From: Candidatus Nitrosopumilus sp. | GTDB lineage: Archaea; Thermoproteota; Nitrososphaeria; Nitrososphaerales; Nitrosopumilaceae | DNA: 32,163 nucleotides | Reading direction: 5' to 3' | Assembly: GCA_024644105.1 (NCBI GenBank) | Contig: JAHELP010000011.1 | Span: 1 to 32,163 of the forward strand | Shown here: one piece after another, positions 320 through 12,713 of the stretch | Layout of the letters: each line of letters begins with the position of its first letter | Position numbering within the stretch: position 1 is the first letter of the stretch | The notes under the pieces: generated by a model | What the model saw: only the letters and a program-made list of their open reading frames with translations | The model's database searches: none | What the model was told of the DNA's origin: nothing | Position numbers and translations under genes: made by a program

Positions 320-721
320 TTGATCACTTTGTTTAGACCTGAAAGAATAGTAGAAAGAAAATCAACATTATTCTCAATTGTAGTTACAGGTGTAGTTGCA
401 ATTTTAGCTTTACCGATAATTATACCTCATCTTTTACATGGATATCATTTAGCCCACATCTTTTTGCATGTAGGTGGAATTTCACTTGCAGTATTCATTT
501 CAGTACTTGCAGGATTTGCATATTATCGATTAAGAACAAAACGACTCTTACTTAGTGCAATTGCTTTTACAAATTTTATTGGAGCTGAATTTGTACTGCT
601 TGTAGATGCTACATGGCCATCAATATATGATATTGGTGATATGTCACTTCAGGAAGTAGGACATTTATTGACTTTTGGCACTTTAGGATTATTAGCATTA
701 GGAGTGTTTAGAAATGACTGA
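320..721 (+). CDS. Small multi-pass membrane protein, unknown function
   Basis: This is a 133-residue protein with four predicted membrane helices, at roughly residues 17-39, 43-67, 72-95 and 110-130. The short connecting loops include the basic stretch R-L-R-T-K-R-L. Histidines lie within or near helices 1, 2 and 4. I recognise no family or catalytic motif. The start is a TTG with a TATA-like box upstream. The gene overlaps the next one by 8 bases, so the two are almost certainly co-transcribed with the winged-helix regulator. A membrane-located partner or sensor for that regulator is plausible, but this is inferred from position only. Confidence 0.75.
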   Translation: MITLFRPERIVERKSTLFSIVVTGVVAILALPIIIPHLLHGYHLAHIFLHVGGISLAVFISVLAGFAYYRLRTKRLLLSAIAFTNFIGAEFVLLVDATWPSIYDIGDMSLQEVGHLLTFGTLGLLALGVFRND

Positions 722-1214
722 AAGAGATTTACAATTACAAGAAATCATAGAGCAAAATCCTGGAATTCAATTCCGTGAGATAATGCGTTCATCTGGTTTA
801 AAAAATGGAGTTCTAAGTCATTATTTAGGAAAATTAGAAAAAAGTGGAATTATCAAAGTAATTCGTGGACCACGTCAAACAAGATTCTATTCACCAAAAA
901 TTACAGAAGATGAATCAATTGTAATCAAAGCTTTGCGAAAACAAACTCCCAGGGATTTACTACTTGCATTAATTCAAAATGATGGAATGGAGTTTTCAGA
1001 ATTAGTTAAGGAAGTTAAAAAATCCCCATCAACAGTGTCACTATACTTATCACAAATTATAGAGGATGGATTAGTAGAGATTAGATTTGTTGAACTCAAA
1101 AAAAGATATCATATTAAAGCAAGAGATCTTATTGATAAATTAATTGAAGACTATAGACCAAGCTTGCTTGAGAAACCCACTTCTGGATTTGAAGATATCA
1201 TCAATTCTTTCTAG
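714..1214 (+). CDS. Tandem winged-helix transcriptional regulator
   Basis: The 166-residue protein contains two consecutive winged helix-turn-helix units. The first, about residues 5-62, has a recognition helix near N-G-V-L-S-H-Y-L and a wing ending R-F-Y-S-P. The second, about residues 67-140, has a helix near S-P-S-T-V-S-L-Y-L and a wing ending K-R-Y-H-I. This layout is frequent in archaeal MarR/ArsR-like regulators of membrane-protein operons. The ATG lies inside the end of the membrane-protein gene (8-base overlap), and the exported-protein gene starts before this one ends, so all three form one transcription unit. No ligand-binding or metal motif is visible. DNA binding is well supported; the target is unknown. 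Confidence 0.85.
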   Translation: MTERDLQLQEIIEQNPGIQFREIMRSSGLKNGVLSHYLGKLEKSGIIKVIRGPRQTRFYSPKITEDESIVIKALRKQTPRDLLLALIQNDGMEFSELVKEVKKSPSTVSLYLSQIIEDGLVEIRFVELKKRYHIKARDLIDKLIEDYRPSLLEKPTSGFEDIINSF

Positions 1215-7394: not shown

Positions 7395-7556
7395 ATGTCA
7401 GTAGAAATTACATGTGGTAAATGTGGAGAAAAGATCACAAACATGAAAATGTTAAAATCTCTAAAAGATGTACTAAATCCCTCAAATGGAAAATGTCCAT
7501 CATGTGGACAGAAACTTTCTACATCAGAATTTTCACTTGATGTTCAAGAAAAATGA
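7395..7556 (+). CDS. Small two-CxxC zinc-ribbon protein (53 aa)
   Basis: A short gene encodes 53 residues with two zinc knuckles, C7-G-K-C10 and C34-P-S-C37, separated by a basic helix (K-M-L-K-S-L-K-D-V-L). This is a complete zinc ribbon and nothing more. The ATG has an AT-rich box (TTAATTATTTT, about 7366-7376) at leaderless spacing. The sequence GATCATTTT at 7385-7393 lies between this box and the ATG, and recurs at 7568 and 9853 near the ribonucleotide reductase-related genes. The stop codon lies in the left arm of a strong hairpin. The function is unknown. A nucleic-acid-binding or adaptor role is possible but not shown. Confidence 0.75.
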   Translation: MSVEITCGKCGEKITNMKMLKSLKDVLNPSNGKCPSCGQKLSTSEFSLDVQEK

Positions 7557-7577
7557 TCTTGATGGAAGATCATTTTT
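7551..7577 (+). terminator. Hairpin terminator of the small zinc-ribbon gene
   Basis: AAATGATCTT (7551-7560) pairs with AAGATCATTT (7566-7575) over the 5-base loop GATGG and runs into Ts. The stem contains the stop codon and two GATC sites. It may be both terminator and part of the GATC element cluster. Confidence 0.55.
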
Positions 7578-7610
7578 GAAAAATTTGATCAAGAATGTGA
7601 TATAATGATC
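7555..7610 (+). promoter_or_regulatory. Cluster of four GATC elements before the wHTH/ATP-cone gene
   Basis: GATC occurs at 7555, 7568, 7587 and 7607, the last three spaced 19 and 20 bases apart, immediately upstream of the TATA-like CTTATTTA at 7622-7629. The block from 7568, GATCATTTTTGAAAAATTTG followed by ATCA, closely resembles the block at 9853. This is a candidate operator array. Confidence 0.45.
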
Positions 7611-7652: not shown

Positions 7653-9827
7653 GTGAAACAAACCGAAGAAGATTTGGAGTTAGACCTAGATGTTGATGCT
7701 GATCTAGATGATGACTCTGAATTGGATATGGATGTAGATGACGATGTAGACGACTCTGATCCAAAACGAGGTGGAATCTTACAATCTACCTCAAAACGAG
7801 TCAGAATGATATTCTCTGTTATGGCAAGTCCAAACAGAATAGATATTCTTAGAATCCTTAATTCCAAAGGACCATTAACTTATTCAGAATTAAAATCCCT
7901 TGCTGGATTCAAATCAAAAAAAGAAAGTGGAAAATTTGCATACCACTTGAGAAAATTACTTAGACAGTCACTTGTTGCATTAAACAAATCAGAAAGACGT
8001 TACACCATCACAAATCTTGGAAAACTTGTTTTAAGTTTGGCAAGACAAATTGAAGAAAGATCAATTATTGAAAGCGGAAAAATGTATGTTAGAACTTCAT
8101 CAGAATCGATTGAGGAATTTAACTCACATAAAATTATCCAATCACTAGTTCGTGAAGGAAGCCTTCCATTAGAACTTGCACAAAAAATAACAGAAGAAGT
8201 TGAAAATAGAATTTACAAATATCAGACTACCTATCTTACAGGCGCATTAATTCGTGAGATGGTCAATTCTGTGCTGCTTGAGCACGGCCATGAGGAATAT
8301 AGGAACAAACTCGCACGCCTAGGCATTCCTGTCTATGATGTTCAAGAGATGATATCTAATTTAGATAATGTAGATAACGGTGCTGAAGGCCTTTTGTTTA
8401 ATACAGGTCAAAGAGTTTTTGCTGAACATCTTCTTACAAACGTTTTACCAAAAGATGTAGCCGACTCACATCTTTCTGGTGACTTGCATATTTCTAATCC
8501 TGGAATTTGGTCCATGATTCCTGATACAATATTTGTAAACGTTAAAGAATTAATTGAAGATGGAATTGAACTTGGTGGAAAATATTTAGATGTATCACGA
8601 ATTCCTGCATCAAAACAACTAGGTGAAATTACAAGTTCACTGTCTGTTATCATTGCACTCTTATCAAAAGAAGCTTCTCAAGAGATTGTTCTTGATGGAT
8701 TGACTTCATTATTTACAAAACATTCAAAATCTCTTCCTGAACTTGAAGAAAAACTAACTGAGGCTTTTGCAACTGCATCAACCACTTCTAAATACAATAA
8801 GACTAGTACAAATGTTTCAATTCGTTTACAGTTAGGATCTGATACAAAAATAATTACTTCAATAATTAATGCATACAAAAATTACACAAAGATTACACCA
8901 ATTCCAAAAATTGGTTTGATAATTGATGCTGAGAAGGGAAAGATTACAGATGTATCACAAGCTGTATCAGAAATTCTATCTCTTGGTGGTAAAGTAATGT
9001 TCGCTAAAGGTCAAACATCTAGTTATGGTATTACAAATGGTTCCACAAAGACCACTGGTCCTCTATCAATAACATTACAATCAGTTTCAATTAATCTTCC
9101 AAGATTAGCTTTTGAATCAAACAAAGATGAAACTTACTTTAGAGCAAGACTTGCTTTGCTAATGAAACCAGCTTTAGCTTCAATGGCATTAAGAAAGAAA
9201 GAAATTTCAGATTTAACAAGACGAGGATTAAATCCTATTCTTGCAAAGAACACTCAATACATGCAAAGAAGTTCAGTATCACTTGTTGTAAACTTGGTTG
9301 GACTCAAAGAAGCAGTCTTTAACATTTTAGGATTCCAAGACAATAAAGAAGGTCGAGATATTCTACACAAAGTCATTCAAACAGCAGTTGATGTTGGAGC
9401 CAAAAAAGGTAAAGAATTAGGCGATACCGTGGCCATTTCCATGACTGAAACTGAAGGTTCTGTCCGATTTGCAACTCTAGATGGTGAAAAATATGGTAAA
9501 AATTCTAGTCTAAACTCTATGGATGCTGAATATTATTCTCAAGGAATAGTGGTAAATGCCTCAGAAGTTTCTGACTATACTGCCAAAAGTGAGCCTATTT
9601 CTGAATGTAATAAACTCTCAAAATTGCTTAATGGTGGATTACTTGTAACATTAGATATTGACCAAGATGCAAAGATTGAGGATATCAAAAAATCAATTGA
9701 AAAGACATCTGAACTTACACCGTCTTTCAAACCTGTAAGACATACTGCAATTTGTGGTGAGTGTGGTTTTAAGGATGAACCATTTGATGACAAATGTCCA
9801 AAGTGTAAGTCACCATACGTTGTCTGA
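7653..9827 (+). CDS. wHTH + ATP-cone + degenerate class III ribonucleotide reductase, putative regulator
   Basis: The 724-residue protein has an unusual domain order. Residues 5-36 are a run of Asp/Glu, residues 48-125 a winged helix-turn-helix (S-P-N-R-I-D-I-L, K-F-A-Y-H-L-R-K-L), and residues 144-235 an ATP-cone as in reductases and NrdR. From about 248 on there is an NrdD-like body, with H-L-S-G-D-L-H-I, I-N-L-P-R-L-A-F at 480-487, N-L-V-G-L-K-E-A at 547 and R-F-A-T-L-D at 605. The end is a C701/C704/C715/C718 zinc ribbon. The only other cysteine is C652. The catalytic radical cysteine region reads N-G-S-T-K-T, and the glycyl-radical tail after the ribbon is absent. It cannot be a working class III enzyme. 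I infer a nucleotide-sensing transcription factor; the class II reductase gene follows. GTG start. Confidence 0.85.
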   Translation: MKQTEEDLELDLDVDADLDDDSELDMDVDDDVDDSDPKRGGILQSTSKRVRMIFSVMASPNRIDILRILNSKGPLTYSELKSLAGFKSKKESGKFAYHLRKLLRQSLVALNKSERRYTITNLGKLVLSLARQIEERSIIESGKMYVRTSSESIEEFNSHKIIQSLVREGSLPLELAQKITEEVENRIYKYQTTYLTGALIREMVNSVLLEHGHEEYRNKLARLGIPVYDVQEMISNLDNVDNGAEGLLFNTGQRVFAEHLLTNVLPKDVADSHLSGDLHISNPGIWSMIPDTIFVNVKELIEDGIELGGKYLDVSRIPASKQLGEITSSLSVIIALLSKEASQEIVLDGLTSLFTKHSKSLPELEEKLTEAFATASTTSKYNKTSTNVSIRLQLGSDTKIITSIINAYKNYTKITPIPKIGLIIDAEKGKITDVSQAVSEILSLGGKVMFAKGQTSSYGITNGSTKTTGPLSITLQSVSINLPRLAFESNKDETYFRARLALLMKPALASMALRKKEISDLTRRGLNPILAKNTQYMQRSSVSLVVNLVGLKEAVFNILGFQDNKEGRDILHKVIQTAVDVGAKKGKELGDTVAISMTETEGSVRFATLDGEKYGKNSSLNSMDAEYYSQGIVVNASEVSDYTAKSEPISECNKLSKLLNGGLLVTLDIDQDAKIEDIKKSIEKTSELTPSFKPVRHTAICGECGFKDEPFDDKCPKCKSPYVV

Positions 9828-9852: not shown

Positions 9853-9900
9853 GATCATTTTTCAAAACTTTTTGATCAGTTTCAGATCTGGCGATCATCG
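9853..9900 (+). promoter_or_regulatory. Cluster of four GATC elements before the reductase gene
   Basis: GATC occurs at 9853, 9874, 9885 and 9893 between the regulator gene and the class II reductase gene. The first two sit in GATCATTTTTCAAAACTTTT followed by TGATCA, nearly the same as the block starting at 7568. The TATA-like GTAAATATGA at 9921-9930 lies just downstream. The rest of the 234-base gap holds the features listed separately. Confidence 0.45.
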
Positions 9901-10018
9901 TCAATCATTACCAATTATGTGTAAATATGAATTTCATACTAATGTCTAACCCGATCCAATCCAAATTGGAGCGTTGTCAACTTTATTGAATCAAAGTTTT
10001 AGGAAAACCGGACAAACA

Positions 10019-10027
10019 GTTTATACA
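10019..10027 (+). promoter_or_regulatory. TATA-like box for the class II reductase
   Basis: GTTTATACA lies about 40 bases before the ATG, predicting a start site near 10047 and a short leader. A second possible box at 9921-9930 would give a leader of about 110 bases. Confidence 0.5.
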
Positions 10028-10061: not shown

Positions 10062-12713
10062 ATGGATAATTCACAGATAGAAAATACGATCAATGAGATC
10101 CGTAAGCGCAGTGGCGCAGTAACGGCTTTCAATAAAGATAAAATTTCAAATGCCATTTACAGGGCATTGGCAGCCACCTCTAAAGCCGATCGTGGCGTTG
10201 CCGACAAACTAGCCGAAGATGTAGTTAACAAGTTAGTAGAGCAAGGATTTACTAGTTCTAGAGCACCTACAGTTGAAGATATTCAAGATATTGTAGAATC
10301 AACTTTAATTGATAGCGGCAATAGCGATATTGCAAAAGCATACATCGTATACAGACATGAGAGAAGAAAATTAAGAGACGAAAAGATGAAGGTCTTAAAT
10401 CTAAAGGCCCTAGACCCAGTTTCAAAAAAGTTTGATTTGAACTGCTTGAGAGTTTTGGCCTCAAGATATCTTTTCAGAAATTCAAAAAGTGAGATTATTG
10501 AATCTCCAACTCAAATGTTTGAGCGAGTTGCAATTCTGGTAGGAATTGGTGACATGCTATATGATTCACAAATATTTGATAAATCTGGAAGTAACAAACA
10601 GGATATAGAGGAAGCAAAATCTTATCTTGAAAAACTTGATGCCTTTGATTATAAATTCAAAGTTGGAGATTATTTCTTTAACAAATGGCATTTTAGAGCC
10701 TTAATCAATCACTATGTGACTCTTGCAAACAAGGGTCAGATGAAAGTAAGTTTCAAAGATCTTTTGACACTTTTAGCAGGAAAGAAACTGGACAGTTATT
10801 CAGACAAAATTACAGAATACTTTAAGCTGATGACTGGCCAAGACTTTCTACCAAATTCACCAACAATGATGAATGCAGGTGGTAGATTAGGACAGCTTTC
10901 TGCATGCTTTGTACTTGGAATGCAAGATGGCATGGAAGAAATAATGAAATCTACTTCTGATGCAGCTCTAATCTTCAAATCTGGTGGTGGAGTCGGGATT
11001 AATTATTCTGATCTTCGTGAAGAAGGTGATATTGTAGCATCAACATCTGGTGTTGCATCTGGACCTGTATCTTTCATGAATATCATCAATACAGTCACTG
11101 AAGTTGTAAAACAAGGAGGAAAAAGACGTGGTGCAAACATGGGAATTATTGAGGCATGGCATCCTGATGTTGAAAAATTCATCACAAACAAAACAGAAGC
11201 CGGAGTTTTAGAGAATTTCAACGTAAGTGTTGGAATCTGGGAAGACTTTTGGCATGCACTTGTAAACACAACTGATGGTAACTATGTTCTACGAAGTCCT
11301 CGAGACAAAAAACCTGTTAAAGAAATCAATGCACATCAATTAATTGATCTAATTGCATTATCTGCATGGAAAAGTGCCGAGCCTGGTTTGATCTTCTTTG
11401 ATCAAATTAACAAATACAATGTATTTGCAAAAGCAAGACAAGCACCATTACGAGCAACAAATCCATGCGGTGAACAAAGTCTCTATCCATACGAATCATG
11501 TAACTTGGGTTCTATCAACTTGGTAAATCTTGCAAAAAGACAAGCTGATGGTTCTTATGAATTTGATTGGCAAGGATATGAAGAGATTATCCGAAAGACA
11601 ACAAGATTCTTGGATAATATCATTGATGTAAACAATTATCCAGTTCCAGAAATTAGTTTAGCTTCAAAAGAGTCTAGACGAATTGGACTAGGAGTTATGG
11701 GAGTAGCTGATTTACTATACAGACTCAAAATTCCATACAACTCTAGAGAAGGATATGAACTACAATCAAAACTATCTGAAGCACTGACATACTATTCTAT
11801 GGAAGAGAGTGTTGCACTTGCAAGATCTCGTGGTGAATTCCCACTTTGTGCAAAGACAGAATATCCTGAAGGAAAGATTCCTGTATCTGGATATTATGAA
11901 AAATCAAAAGATTCTCATTCATACGAATGGGATCCACTAATTGCGGAAATCAAAAAACATGGAATTAGAAATGTCTTAACTACTACAGTAGCTCCTACTG
12001 GAACACTATCTATGATTGCAGACTGTTCAAACGGAATGGAACCTGCATTTGCACTAGTGTTTGAAAAGAGAGTCACTGTTGGAAGATTCTTCTACACAAA
12101 CAAGATTCTTGAAGAAGCCCTAAAAGAAGAAGGACTCTACACTGATGAAATTCTTGAAAAGATTGCAGACAATTATGGTTCATTAAAAGGAATTGAAGAA
12201 ATTCCACAATGGATGCAAGATGTCTTTGTTACCGCAATGGATATCCATTGGGCTGACCATCTTATGGCTCAAGGTGTATGGCAAGATTGGATTGGAAATG
12301 CAATTGCAAAAACAATCAACATGCCATATGATGTCACAGTAGAGGATGTAAAATCTGCATATCTACTAGCACATGAGATTGGTCTAAAAGGAATGACTGT
12401 CTATCGTGATGGTTCTAGACACAAACAAGTACTTCACATGACAAGTGAGAATGCAACAAAAACATTTGAAGTATCACCAAGTGACTACATGACTGAATTT
12501 GTAACTAAAAATATTACAAATCCATACATCAAATCTCAAGTTAATGCTGCATTAGCATTAAAAGTTCATGATGAAGAAATCCAACTAGAGGCTCCAAAGG
12601 CTGAAGAGATTTCTGAAGACAAATTATGTCCTACTTGCAAAAACAATTTGGTATTTGTAGAAGGTTGTAGTATCTGCATAGAATGTGGATACAGTGGTTG
12701 TACTTCTGGATAA
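10062..12713 (+). CDS. nrdJ: Adenosylcobalamin-dependent (class II) ribonucleotide reductase
   Basis: The 883-residue enzyme makes deoxyribonucleotides and is the working reductase in this region. An N-terminal ATP-cone covers about residues 12-105 for allosteric control. The catalytic barrel follows, with Cys282 in S-A-C-F-V-L and the loop N467-P-C469-G-E471 carrying the radical cysteine and general base. The specificity segment includes G-G-K-R-R-G-A-N. The C-terminus ends with a cysteine-rich segment (C-P-T-C ... C-S-I-C-I-E-C) that supplies the re-reducing thiols typical of B12-dependent NrdJ. No class I diiron ligands or small subunit are present. It follows the degenerate NrdD-like regulator. 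A T-rich tract at 12729-12750 ends the transcript. Confidence 0.95.
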   Translation: MDNSQIENTINEIRKRSGAVTAFNKDKISNAIYRALAATSKADRGVADKLAEDVVNKLVEQGFTSSRAPTVEDIQDIVESTLIDSGNSDIAKAYIVYRHERRKLRDEKMKVLNLKALDPVSKKFDLNCLRVLASRYLFRNSKSEIIESPTQMFERVAILVGIGDMLYDSQIFDKSGSNKQDIEEAKSYLEKLDAFDYKFKVGDYFFNKWHFRALINHYVTLANKGQMKVSFKDLLTLLAGKKLDSYSDKITEYFKLMTGQDFLPNSPTMMNAGGRLGQLSACFVLGMQDGMEEIMKSTSDAALIFKSGGGVGINYSDLREEGDIVASTSGVASGPVSFMNIINTVTEVVKQGGKRRGANMGIIEAWHPDVEKFITNKTEAGVLENFNVSVGIWEDFWHALVNTTDGNYVLRSPRDKKPVKEINAHQLIDLIALSAWKSAEPGLIFFDQINKYNVFAKARQAPLRATNPCGEQSLYPYESCNLGSINLVNLAKRQADGSYEFDWQGYEEIIRKTTRFLDNIIDVNNYPVPEISLASKESRRIGLGVMGVADLLYRLKIPYNSREGYELQSKLSEALTYYSMEESVALARSRGEFPLCAKTEYPEGKIPVSGYYEKSKDSHSYEWDPLIAEIKKHGIRNVLTTTVAPTGTLSMIADCSNGMEPAFALVFEKRVTVGRFFYTNKILEEALKEEGLYTDEILEKIADNYGSLKGIEEIPQWMQDVFVTAMDIHWADHLMAQGVWQDWIGNAIAKTINMPYDVTVEDVKSAYLLAHEIGLKGMTVYRDGSRHKQVLHMTSENATKTFEVSPSDYMTEFVTKNITNPYIKSQVNAALALKVHDEEIQLEAPKAEEISEDKLCPTCKNNLVFVEGCSICIECGYSGCTSG

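Follow-up and report, generated by a model that had tools for sequence, protein, structure and literature searches.

Positions 7653 to 9827 (forward strand) of the window, the whole 32,163-nucleotide stretch of Candidatus Nitrosopumilus DNA analyzed here, hold a gene with a GTG start whose 724-residue product joins a winged helix and an ATP-cone to a catalytically dead version of the class III ribonucleotide reductase (NrdD) fold. What may such a protein do, if its reductase part no longer works as one? A preliminary description of the gene proposed that the reductase shell binds nucleotides through its allosteric sites and that the winged helix passes this signal to promoters, as an archaeal counterpart to NrdR. 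The explanation we favor is that of a dead NrdD paralogue turned transcription regulator, to which we give a probability of roughly 0.6 as a whole, its dimer, DNA and ligand steps included.

Domain layout and lost reductase motifs

Pfam and an AlphaFold model bear out the domain order proposed earlier, that is, winged helix, ATP-cone, NrdD-like body and zinc ribbon. The chain, encoded throughout on the forward strand, opens with an acidic tail of low model confidence (residues 1-47, positions 7653..7793), which shows little conservation and, in most other genera of the alignment, is shorter. It continues with a winged helix resembling those of ArsR/SmtB regulators (48-142, 7794..8078), the best-conserved domain; an ATP-cone (143-240, 8079..8372) in which T148-S149 occupy the place of the KR pair of the KRDG motif; an NrdD-fold body (241-690, 8373..9722) devoid of the enzyme's cysteines and substrate motifs; and a C-terminal zinc ribbon (691-724, 9723..9824) with C701, C704, C715 and C718. 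Pfam places DUF7347 at residues 53-127, HTH_20 at 57-109 (32.8 bits, cut-off 27), the ATP-cone at 144-216 (35.5 bits, cut-off 25.8) and NRDD with its best stretch at 469-720 (93.7 bits, cut-off 26.2). Translation and alignment confirm that the protein has exactly five cysteines, residue 652 and the four of the ribbon. Counterparts on the nearest named contigs, from Nitrosopumilus, are up to 98% identical to it.

The predicted structure (pLDDT 81.8, pTM 0.75) was compared with NrdD, as the preliminary description had suggested, and contains a class III reductase fold: residues 240-707 superpose on T4 NrdD 1h78 with a Z score of 29.6 and an rmsd of 2.9 Å over 437 residues, and the best Foldseek match of the whole model is the NrdD of S. 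thermophilus (E 1.5e-20, TM 0.53). Residues 44-245 modeled alone (pLDDT 83.4, pTM 0.59) match ArsR/SmtB winged helices at Z 11.8 (83-90 residues, rmsd 2.2-3.2), a score shared by many tied rows that include other winged helices. The best Foldseek match of this N-terminal model is an NrdR model, 9a6n, at E 1.1e-4 (with no aligned range stated), and the cones of NrdA and NrdB align to its residues 99-193 and 101-191 (Z 11.2 and 10.7, respectively). All these fold comparisons cover the families among the matches listed. The regulators SqrR, CzrA, CadC and HlyU of the ArsR/SmtB type share their fold with residues about 44-140, where HTH_20 also scores above its cut-off, but the winged helix here is one domain of a 724-residue chain. 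With NrdD the protein has in common the fold, the position of the ATP-cone, the NLPR motif and the C-terminal zinc ribbon; in contrast to NrdD, it lacks the RPFC cysteine, the radical cysteine, the glycyl radical, the NxN flap and the HxHD motif, and a winged helix has been added.

The extent of this loss appears from an alignment of 54 homologues (34 from the class, hand-picked for diversity, and 20 from outside it) with 37 NrdDs, of which 36 come from the phylum and one, misaligned at the QCC motif, from E. coli. The RPFC cysteine is found in none of the homologues and in all 37 NrdDs. The radical cysteine, correctly reported as missing from the window protein, occurs in two homologues and 36 NrdDs; the glycine of the glycyl radical occurs in one homologue and all 37 NrdDs, and the tyrosine of that motif in no homologue. 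No sequence among the 54 keeps two of these three core residues (RPFC cysteine, radical cysteine, glycyl-radical glycine), which is the outcome of the homologue alignment proposed earlier as a check on the lost cysteine and glycine. The second Asn of the NxN flap and the second His of HxHD, substrate motifs named for P. copri NrdD in the accessible portion of PMC11226230, are each absent from all 54 homologues and present in all 37 NrdDs. In 52 of the 54, glycine replaces the first cysteine of the QCC pair, and three homologues (L036, L047 and L055) have no zinc ribbon. Relics can be seen outside the class: a single glycine in L160, a displaced GY pair in L161, and a cysteine at the radical position in L162 and L164; some outside-class homologues also retain part of the old C-terminal extension, free of the motif.

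The chain stops after the ribbon, none of the three frames between 9741 and 10061 contains an RVxGY-like motif, and none of the 33 class homologues aligned with the window protein has a glycyl-radical tail, so that the earlier statement that no glycyl-radical loop follows the ribbon holds. A frameshift or sequencing error masking an active enzyme was also considered but finds no support: homologues end alike and the frames 3' of the stop contain no motif. We are thus almost certain that the 724-residue protein is a dead reductase. The preliminary description was right on this point, as judged from the 54 homologues and 37 NrdDs, but its argument from the aerobic life of the organism was too narrow: genomes with an NrdD that has all motifs also carry the dead paralogue, and loss of the chemistry is therefore not tied to aerobic life. 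The activase NrdG was above the TIGR02491 cut-off in none of 150 class genomes; however, only 3 of 14 controls pass this cut-off, so that archaeal NrdG may be missed by the model.

Gene naming is affected as well. The window protein scores 83.4 bits with the NrdD equivalog model of NCBIfam (TIGR02487), below the cut-off of 326.35, whereas one homologue (genome G281, C9:33387-35009) narrowly passes it with 327.4 bits. Dead homologues thus match NrdD models, one of them above a curated cut-off, and an anaerobic reductase may be ascribed to genomes that lack one.

The ATP-cone has changed too. The KR pair of KRDG, which we take to be an ATP-cone motif, occurs in none of the 54 homologues and in 29 of the 37 NrdDs. 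Other cone positions are retained: E154 in 53 of the 54, K/R160 and T196 in all of them and R217 in 48, positions that, as in E. coli NrdA, are presumably the nucleotide contacts of other ATP-cones. For P. copri NrdD, two residues are placed close to the phosphates, Lys7 and Arg8 (PMC11226230, accessible portion), and we infer that they are the same KR pair. The proposal that nucleotides are bound through the allosteric sites is weakened by the loss of this pair, of the second Asn of NxN and of the loop-2 Gln, which is kept in two of 54 homologues, whereas the four cone positions just named are retained. With the KR pair gone from every homologue, nucleotide sensing by the dead NrdD is putative, and we give it an even chance: in the altered cone, a nucleotide may be bound through other contacts, a different nucleotide may be bound, or there may be no binding at all.

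Conservation and distribution of the family

The dead-NrdD family is present in 133 of 150 class genomes, and in 123 of the 124 that are at least 90% complete. These figures follow removal of six genomes with weak matches (G010, G018, G024, G030, G036 and G047) from an initial 139; two of the six were read and proved to hold a true NrdD (L059) and another winged-helix protein (L060), and the remaining four were removed on E-value alone. In family f7, none of the 11 genomes among the 150 has more than a weak match. Outside the class, we read 20 homologues from 20 genomes, hand-picked from the best rows of a search of the phylum; matches in that search came from 344 of 398 genomes, many near E 1e-4, and this figure is not used. 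Within the class set of 34 sequences, Pfam recognizes DUF7347 in all, NRDD in 33, the ATP-cone in 32 and HTH_20 in 30, while DUF7347, ATP-cone and NRDD are found together in all 20 homologues from outside.

Selection acts unevenly along the chain. Comparisons with 13 close relatives, of which 11 are distinct because two pairs have identical values, give dN/dS values of 0 to 0.018 for the winged helix, 0 to 0.035 for the cone and 0.03 to 0.11 for the body. In the 33 class homologues, the winged helix has a median identity to the window protein of 79%, the cone of 63% and the body of 30%. Taken together, dN/dS and identity values indicate that selection is strongest at the end with the DNA-binding-type domain; in homologues from outside the class, the winged helix is much less similar, with identities down to 26%. 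Judged from these substitution patterns, the dead NrdD is under strong purifying selection. That it could be a decaying pseudogene of an old NrdD, as the vanished catalytic residues might suggest, is scarcely credible: frames are full-length in most class genomes, the winged helix is near-invariant, and dN/dS far below 1 leads us to reject this reading.

A different enzymatic or nucleotide-handling activity could also persist in the old barrel, with the winged helix as an accessory. The NLPR motif, whose Asn is kept in 54 of 54 homologues and whose Arg in 52, is what one would expect of such an activity, but the RPFC and QCC cysteines (two rows excepted), NxN and HxHD are all gone and the body, at 30% median identity, is far less conserved than the winged helix at 79%, so that we consider it very unlikely.

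In a tree of the NrdD body, the homologues form one side of a branch with SH-aLRT 95. This is a quick tree with a midpoint root and long branches, and it fits a single origin of the dead homologues while falling short of proof. A virus origin was rejected, since 37 pattern matches in viral contigs included no relative of the protein.

Neighboring reductase genes and the comparison with NrdR

Immediately downstream, on the same strand, lies nrdJ (10062..12713), which encodes a class II (B12-dependent) ribonucleotide reductase with an ATP-cone of its own and is the likely target of the regulator. The two products share the cone, yet NrdJ belongs to the class II reductase family and its cone scores 78.9 bits against 35.5 in the 724-residue protein. 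Two other observations concern the surrounding DNA: a 53-codon ORF with CxxC pairs lies 5' of the regulator gene (7395-7556) and is found in several relatives, and near the start of the window (714-1214) is encoded a protein with two winged-helix motifs (HTH_24 and HTH_5).

In the own order, 127 loci extend far enough to show the next gene, and 125 of them have nrdJ directly downstream on the same strand (the misses being L047 and L055; three loci at contig ends were left out, as was L062 from the other set). These loci are not independent, for the collections overlap and some genomes are counted twice (for example, L006/L071 and L007/L078). In other families of the class, nrdJ is adjacent but convergent in 3 of 12 loci (L048, L049 and L063), and no reductase neighbor was found in the other 9; the window NrdJ was the sole query for such genes, and distant relatives may have escaped it. 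Of the 20 loci outside the class, 6 have a reductase gene immediately downstream: in five (L152, L156, L162, L164 and L165) it encodes an NrdD that retains every catalytic motif, and in the sixth, L161, it is NrdJ-like. None was found in the remaining 14. At L158 and L162 the body of the homologue scores higher as NrdD, and neighbors there were read individually. The neighbor can thus be a reductase of either class. In its own order, the dead NrdD has a near-constant place beside nrdJ, and it may thus be the regulator of DNA-precursor supply that is otherwise missing there.

The ArsR/SmtB-type fold, the superior conservation of the winged helix and the place beside nrdJ support the earlier proposal of a regulator with putative DNA binding. 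We hold it probable that the protein is a DNA-binding regulator; judged from sequence and gene order, a transcription regulator is the most likely identity, and control of the reductase gene is rather likely. The protein might instead be a partner of active NrdJ or NrdD, forming complexes that adjust enzyme activity, with the winged helix as a protein contact. Its NrdD fold, its gene pairs with both NrdJ and NrdD, and a body under selection (dN/dS 0.03-0.11) all agree with such a role. However, a specific subunit contact hardly explains why the same protein stands beside two reductase classes, and the most conserved part is a domain of DNA-binding type; we therefore regard a partner role as unlikely.

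The known ATP-cone protein tied to reductase genes is NrdR, a repressor that recognizes paired boxes in reductase promoters and which also provides, with 9a6n, the best Foldseek match to our N-terminal model. NrdR is described as rare in archaea (PMC9110341, accessible portion) and as having its zinc ribbon in front of the ATP-cone (PMC12176259, accessible portion). This order is not that of the 724-residue protein, whose zinc ribbon is C-terminal, whose putative DNA binding would be through the winged helix, whose cone is without the KR pair and which has a whole NrdD shell, whereas NrdR chains number about 150 residues. Among 300 genomes of the phylum, a sample that possibly does not include class families f6-f12, NrdR (TIGR00244) was above cut-off in 22, all from family f13; it was above cut-off in none of the own-order genomes of the sample (at least 50 as listed), and the model has no match in the own genome. 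As an analogy, the term counterpart to NrdR is fair. In all 22 genomes, the coordinates of NrdR adjoin an nrdD. In the five f13 loci that we read (L153, L155, L159, L168 and L169), the dead NrdD has no reductase neighbor, and two of these five genomes, G150 and G311, are also among the 22 with NrdR. NrdR and the dead NrdD may share one task.

A search of the literature, which covered GATC and the cell cycle and left subscription papers mostly outside, returned no description of the dead-NrdD family. Term searches in the accessible portions of PMC3019208, PMC9531940, PMC9669993 and PMC2795772 did not find it either.

Promoter elements and a possible regulon

Upstream of nrdJ, a TATA-box-like TTTATA was recognized by eye at 10020..10025 (forward strand). 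It is preceded by two conserved sequences: the palindrome TATGAATTTCATA (9926..9938), whose arms are kept in relatives while the center base is free, and the element CGTTGTCAACTTTATTGA (9972..9989, forward strand), which corresponds to the consensus CGKTGTYAAN5TTGA and may be called the CGTTGTCAA element. Exact copies of the palindrome pattern TATGAANTTCATA were counted in 62 of the 126 regions upstream of nrdJ, as opposed to 10 of 630 random windows; with at most one mismatch, the counts are 76 and 12. CGKTGTYAAN5TTGA is found, with at most two mismatches, in 100 of the 126 regions against 14 of the 630 windows. In these counts the random windows may overlap true sites, and the relatives among the 126 loci are not independent. 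The center base of the 62 exact copies is C in 20, G in 20, A in 11 and T in 11, so that selection must be on the arms. Within the genus, TATGAANTTCATA is present in 21 of 38 genomes. Upstream of the regulator gene, the palindrome was found in 0 of 126 loci and the CGKTGTYAA element in 3; the promoter of the regulator itself thus does not have them in common with nrdJ, and the two sequences lend no support to autoregulation. A second genomic copy of TATGAANTTCATA lies just 5' of a 36-residue, one-finger C2H2-like ORF (L205, 1501-1641), and a copy is seen at the homologous place in eight genomes (L205, L202, L206, L214, L215, L217, L221 and L223).

Both promoters contain GATC clusters. Four GATC words lie 5' of the regulator gene (at 7555, 7568, 7587 and 7607; span 7555..7610) and four 5' of nrdJ (at 9853, 9874, 9885 and 9893; span 9853..9896), with a fifth at 9953. 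Over 124 loci, GATC is enriched 8.7 times upstream of the regulator gene and 5.8 times upstream of nrdJ, with 350 further intergenic stretches from these loci as the background; the highest enrichment among the other 15 self-complementary 4-mers is 2.9, for CTAG. A GATC triple alone means little, as the own genome has 28 of them against 20 for the reversed pattern. Five further intergenic triples occur elsewhere in this genome. One observation concerns three GATC words 5' of a purF-like gene (L244, 1555-1605, contig C73), the product of which falls narrowly short of the cut-off of 350 with 346.6 bits; this triple may reflect either the same regulon or chance.

Runs of at least four GATC words (spacing 3-30) occur at four places in the own genome, which is 90% complete: the two promoters in the window, the divergent gins23-mcm/rfcS promoter, and a site within the coding sequence of a groEL gene. 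The latter lies on a bacterial-type contig (C59, L241), where GroEL and GroES score above bacterial family cut-offs and which is probably assembly contamination. The longest GATC run found with this pattern is that of the gins23-mcm/rfcS promoter (L240, 2664-2855, contig C67 of the own genome; also L250-L279). Gins23 and the clamp-loader small subunit pass NCBIfam cut-offs and MCM passes those of Pfam. In the best-scoring 30 of 61 family genomes, GATC reaches a density of 39 per kb in this promoter, compared with 3.4 in the rest, and 29 of 30 loci have at least three.

The clusters at the regulator, nrdJ and gins23-mcm/rfcS promoters suggest, as a pattern in the DNA, a replication regulon, which makes it likely that reductase, helicase and clamp loader have a factor in common in Nitrosopumilus and its relatives. 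That the window protein is the factor reading the GATC boxes is a guess. Some genera of its own family have few or no boxes (L036-L039), and GATC clusters, palindrome and CGKTGTYAA element are all absent from the nine f2-f5 loci that were tested. In seven of these nine (families f3 and f5, which belong to the same order as the window), the winged helix is 93-98% identical to that of the window, with helix 89-105 the same except for one K in place of R, and the regulator and nrdJ upstream DNA have no word in common other than A/T-rich ones. Since the sites are missing despite such similar winged helices, GATC, palindrome and element are not simply assignable to this protein.

These observations bear on who commands the regulon. 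The dead reductase could be its nucleotide-sensing master, binding GATC at its own promoter and those of nrdJ and gins23-mcm/rfcS; we consider this doubtful, and it is weakened by sister families that lack the boxes and keep the winged helix so closely. In a bolder variant, the protein may read the methylation state of GATC once the replication fork has passed; some restriction enzymes have winged helices that recognize methylated adenine (PMC11037411, accessible portion). Alternatively, the dead NrdD may be a member of the regulon and act downstream of another factor that binds the GATC boxes of all three promoters. The clusters common to these promoters, and their absence in the f3 and f5 loci despite the near-identical winged helix, argue for such a second factor, but boxes of its own regulon on a regulator gene are the usual picture of autoregulation, and that the dead NrdD is a member and not the master is likewise doubtful.

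Our preferred model of a dead NrdD turned transcription regulator would involve a dimer held by the old NrdD interface, whose winged helices would bind promoter DNA and control both the adjacent reductase gene and the regulator's own gene. A ligand in the altered ATP-cone, perhaps also in the NrdD shell, would change DNA binding; it would most likely be an adenine nucleotide reporting dNTP supply. If the conserved elements 5' of the TATA-like box are sites of the dead NrdD, they would fit activation better than simple promoter blocking. Several facts run against this model: the KR pair of the cone is gone in 54 of 54 homologues; no reductase neighbor was found at 9 of the 12 loci from the other families of the class, or at 14 of the 20 from outside it; the GATC clusters, palindrome and element are missing in the nine f2-f5 loci; and the body is kept almost whole though a small domain could serve as sensor.

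If the regulator model is true, a complete enzyme shell has been reused inside a transcription factor. NrdR is described as rare in archaea, and the dead-NrdD family is present in nearly all good class genomes sampled, beside a reductase gene in its own order. Should the dead reductase also be master of the regulon, dNTP supply would be coupled to helicase and clamp-loader expression, in the manner of the G1/S transcription program. The GATC promoter signature offers a direct handle on this possible replication regulon in Nitrosopumilus and its relatives.
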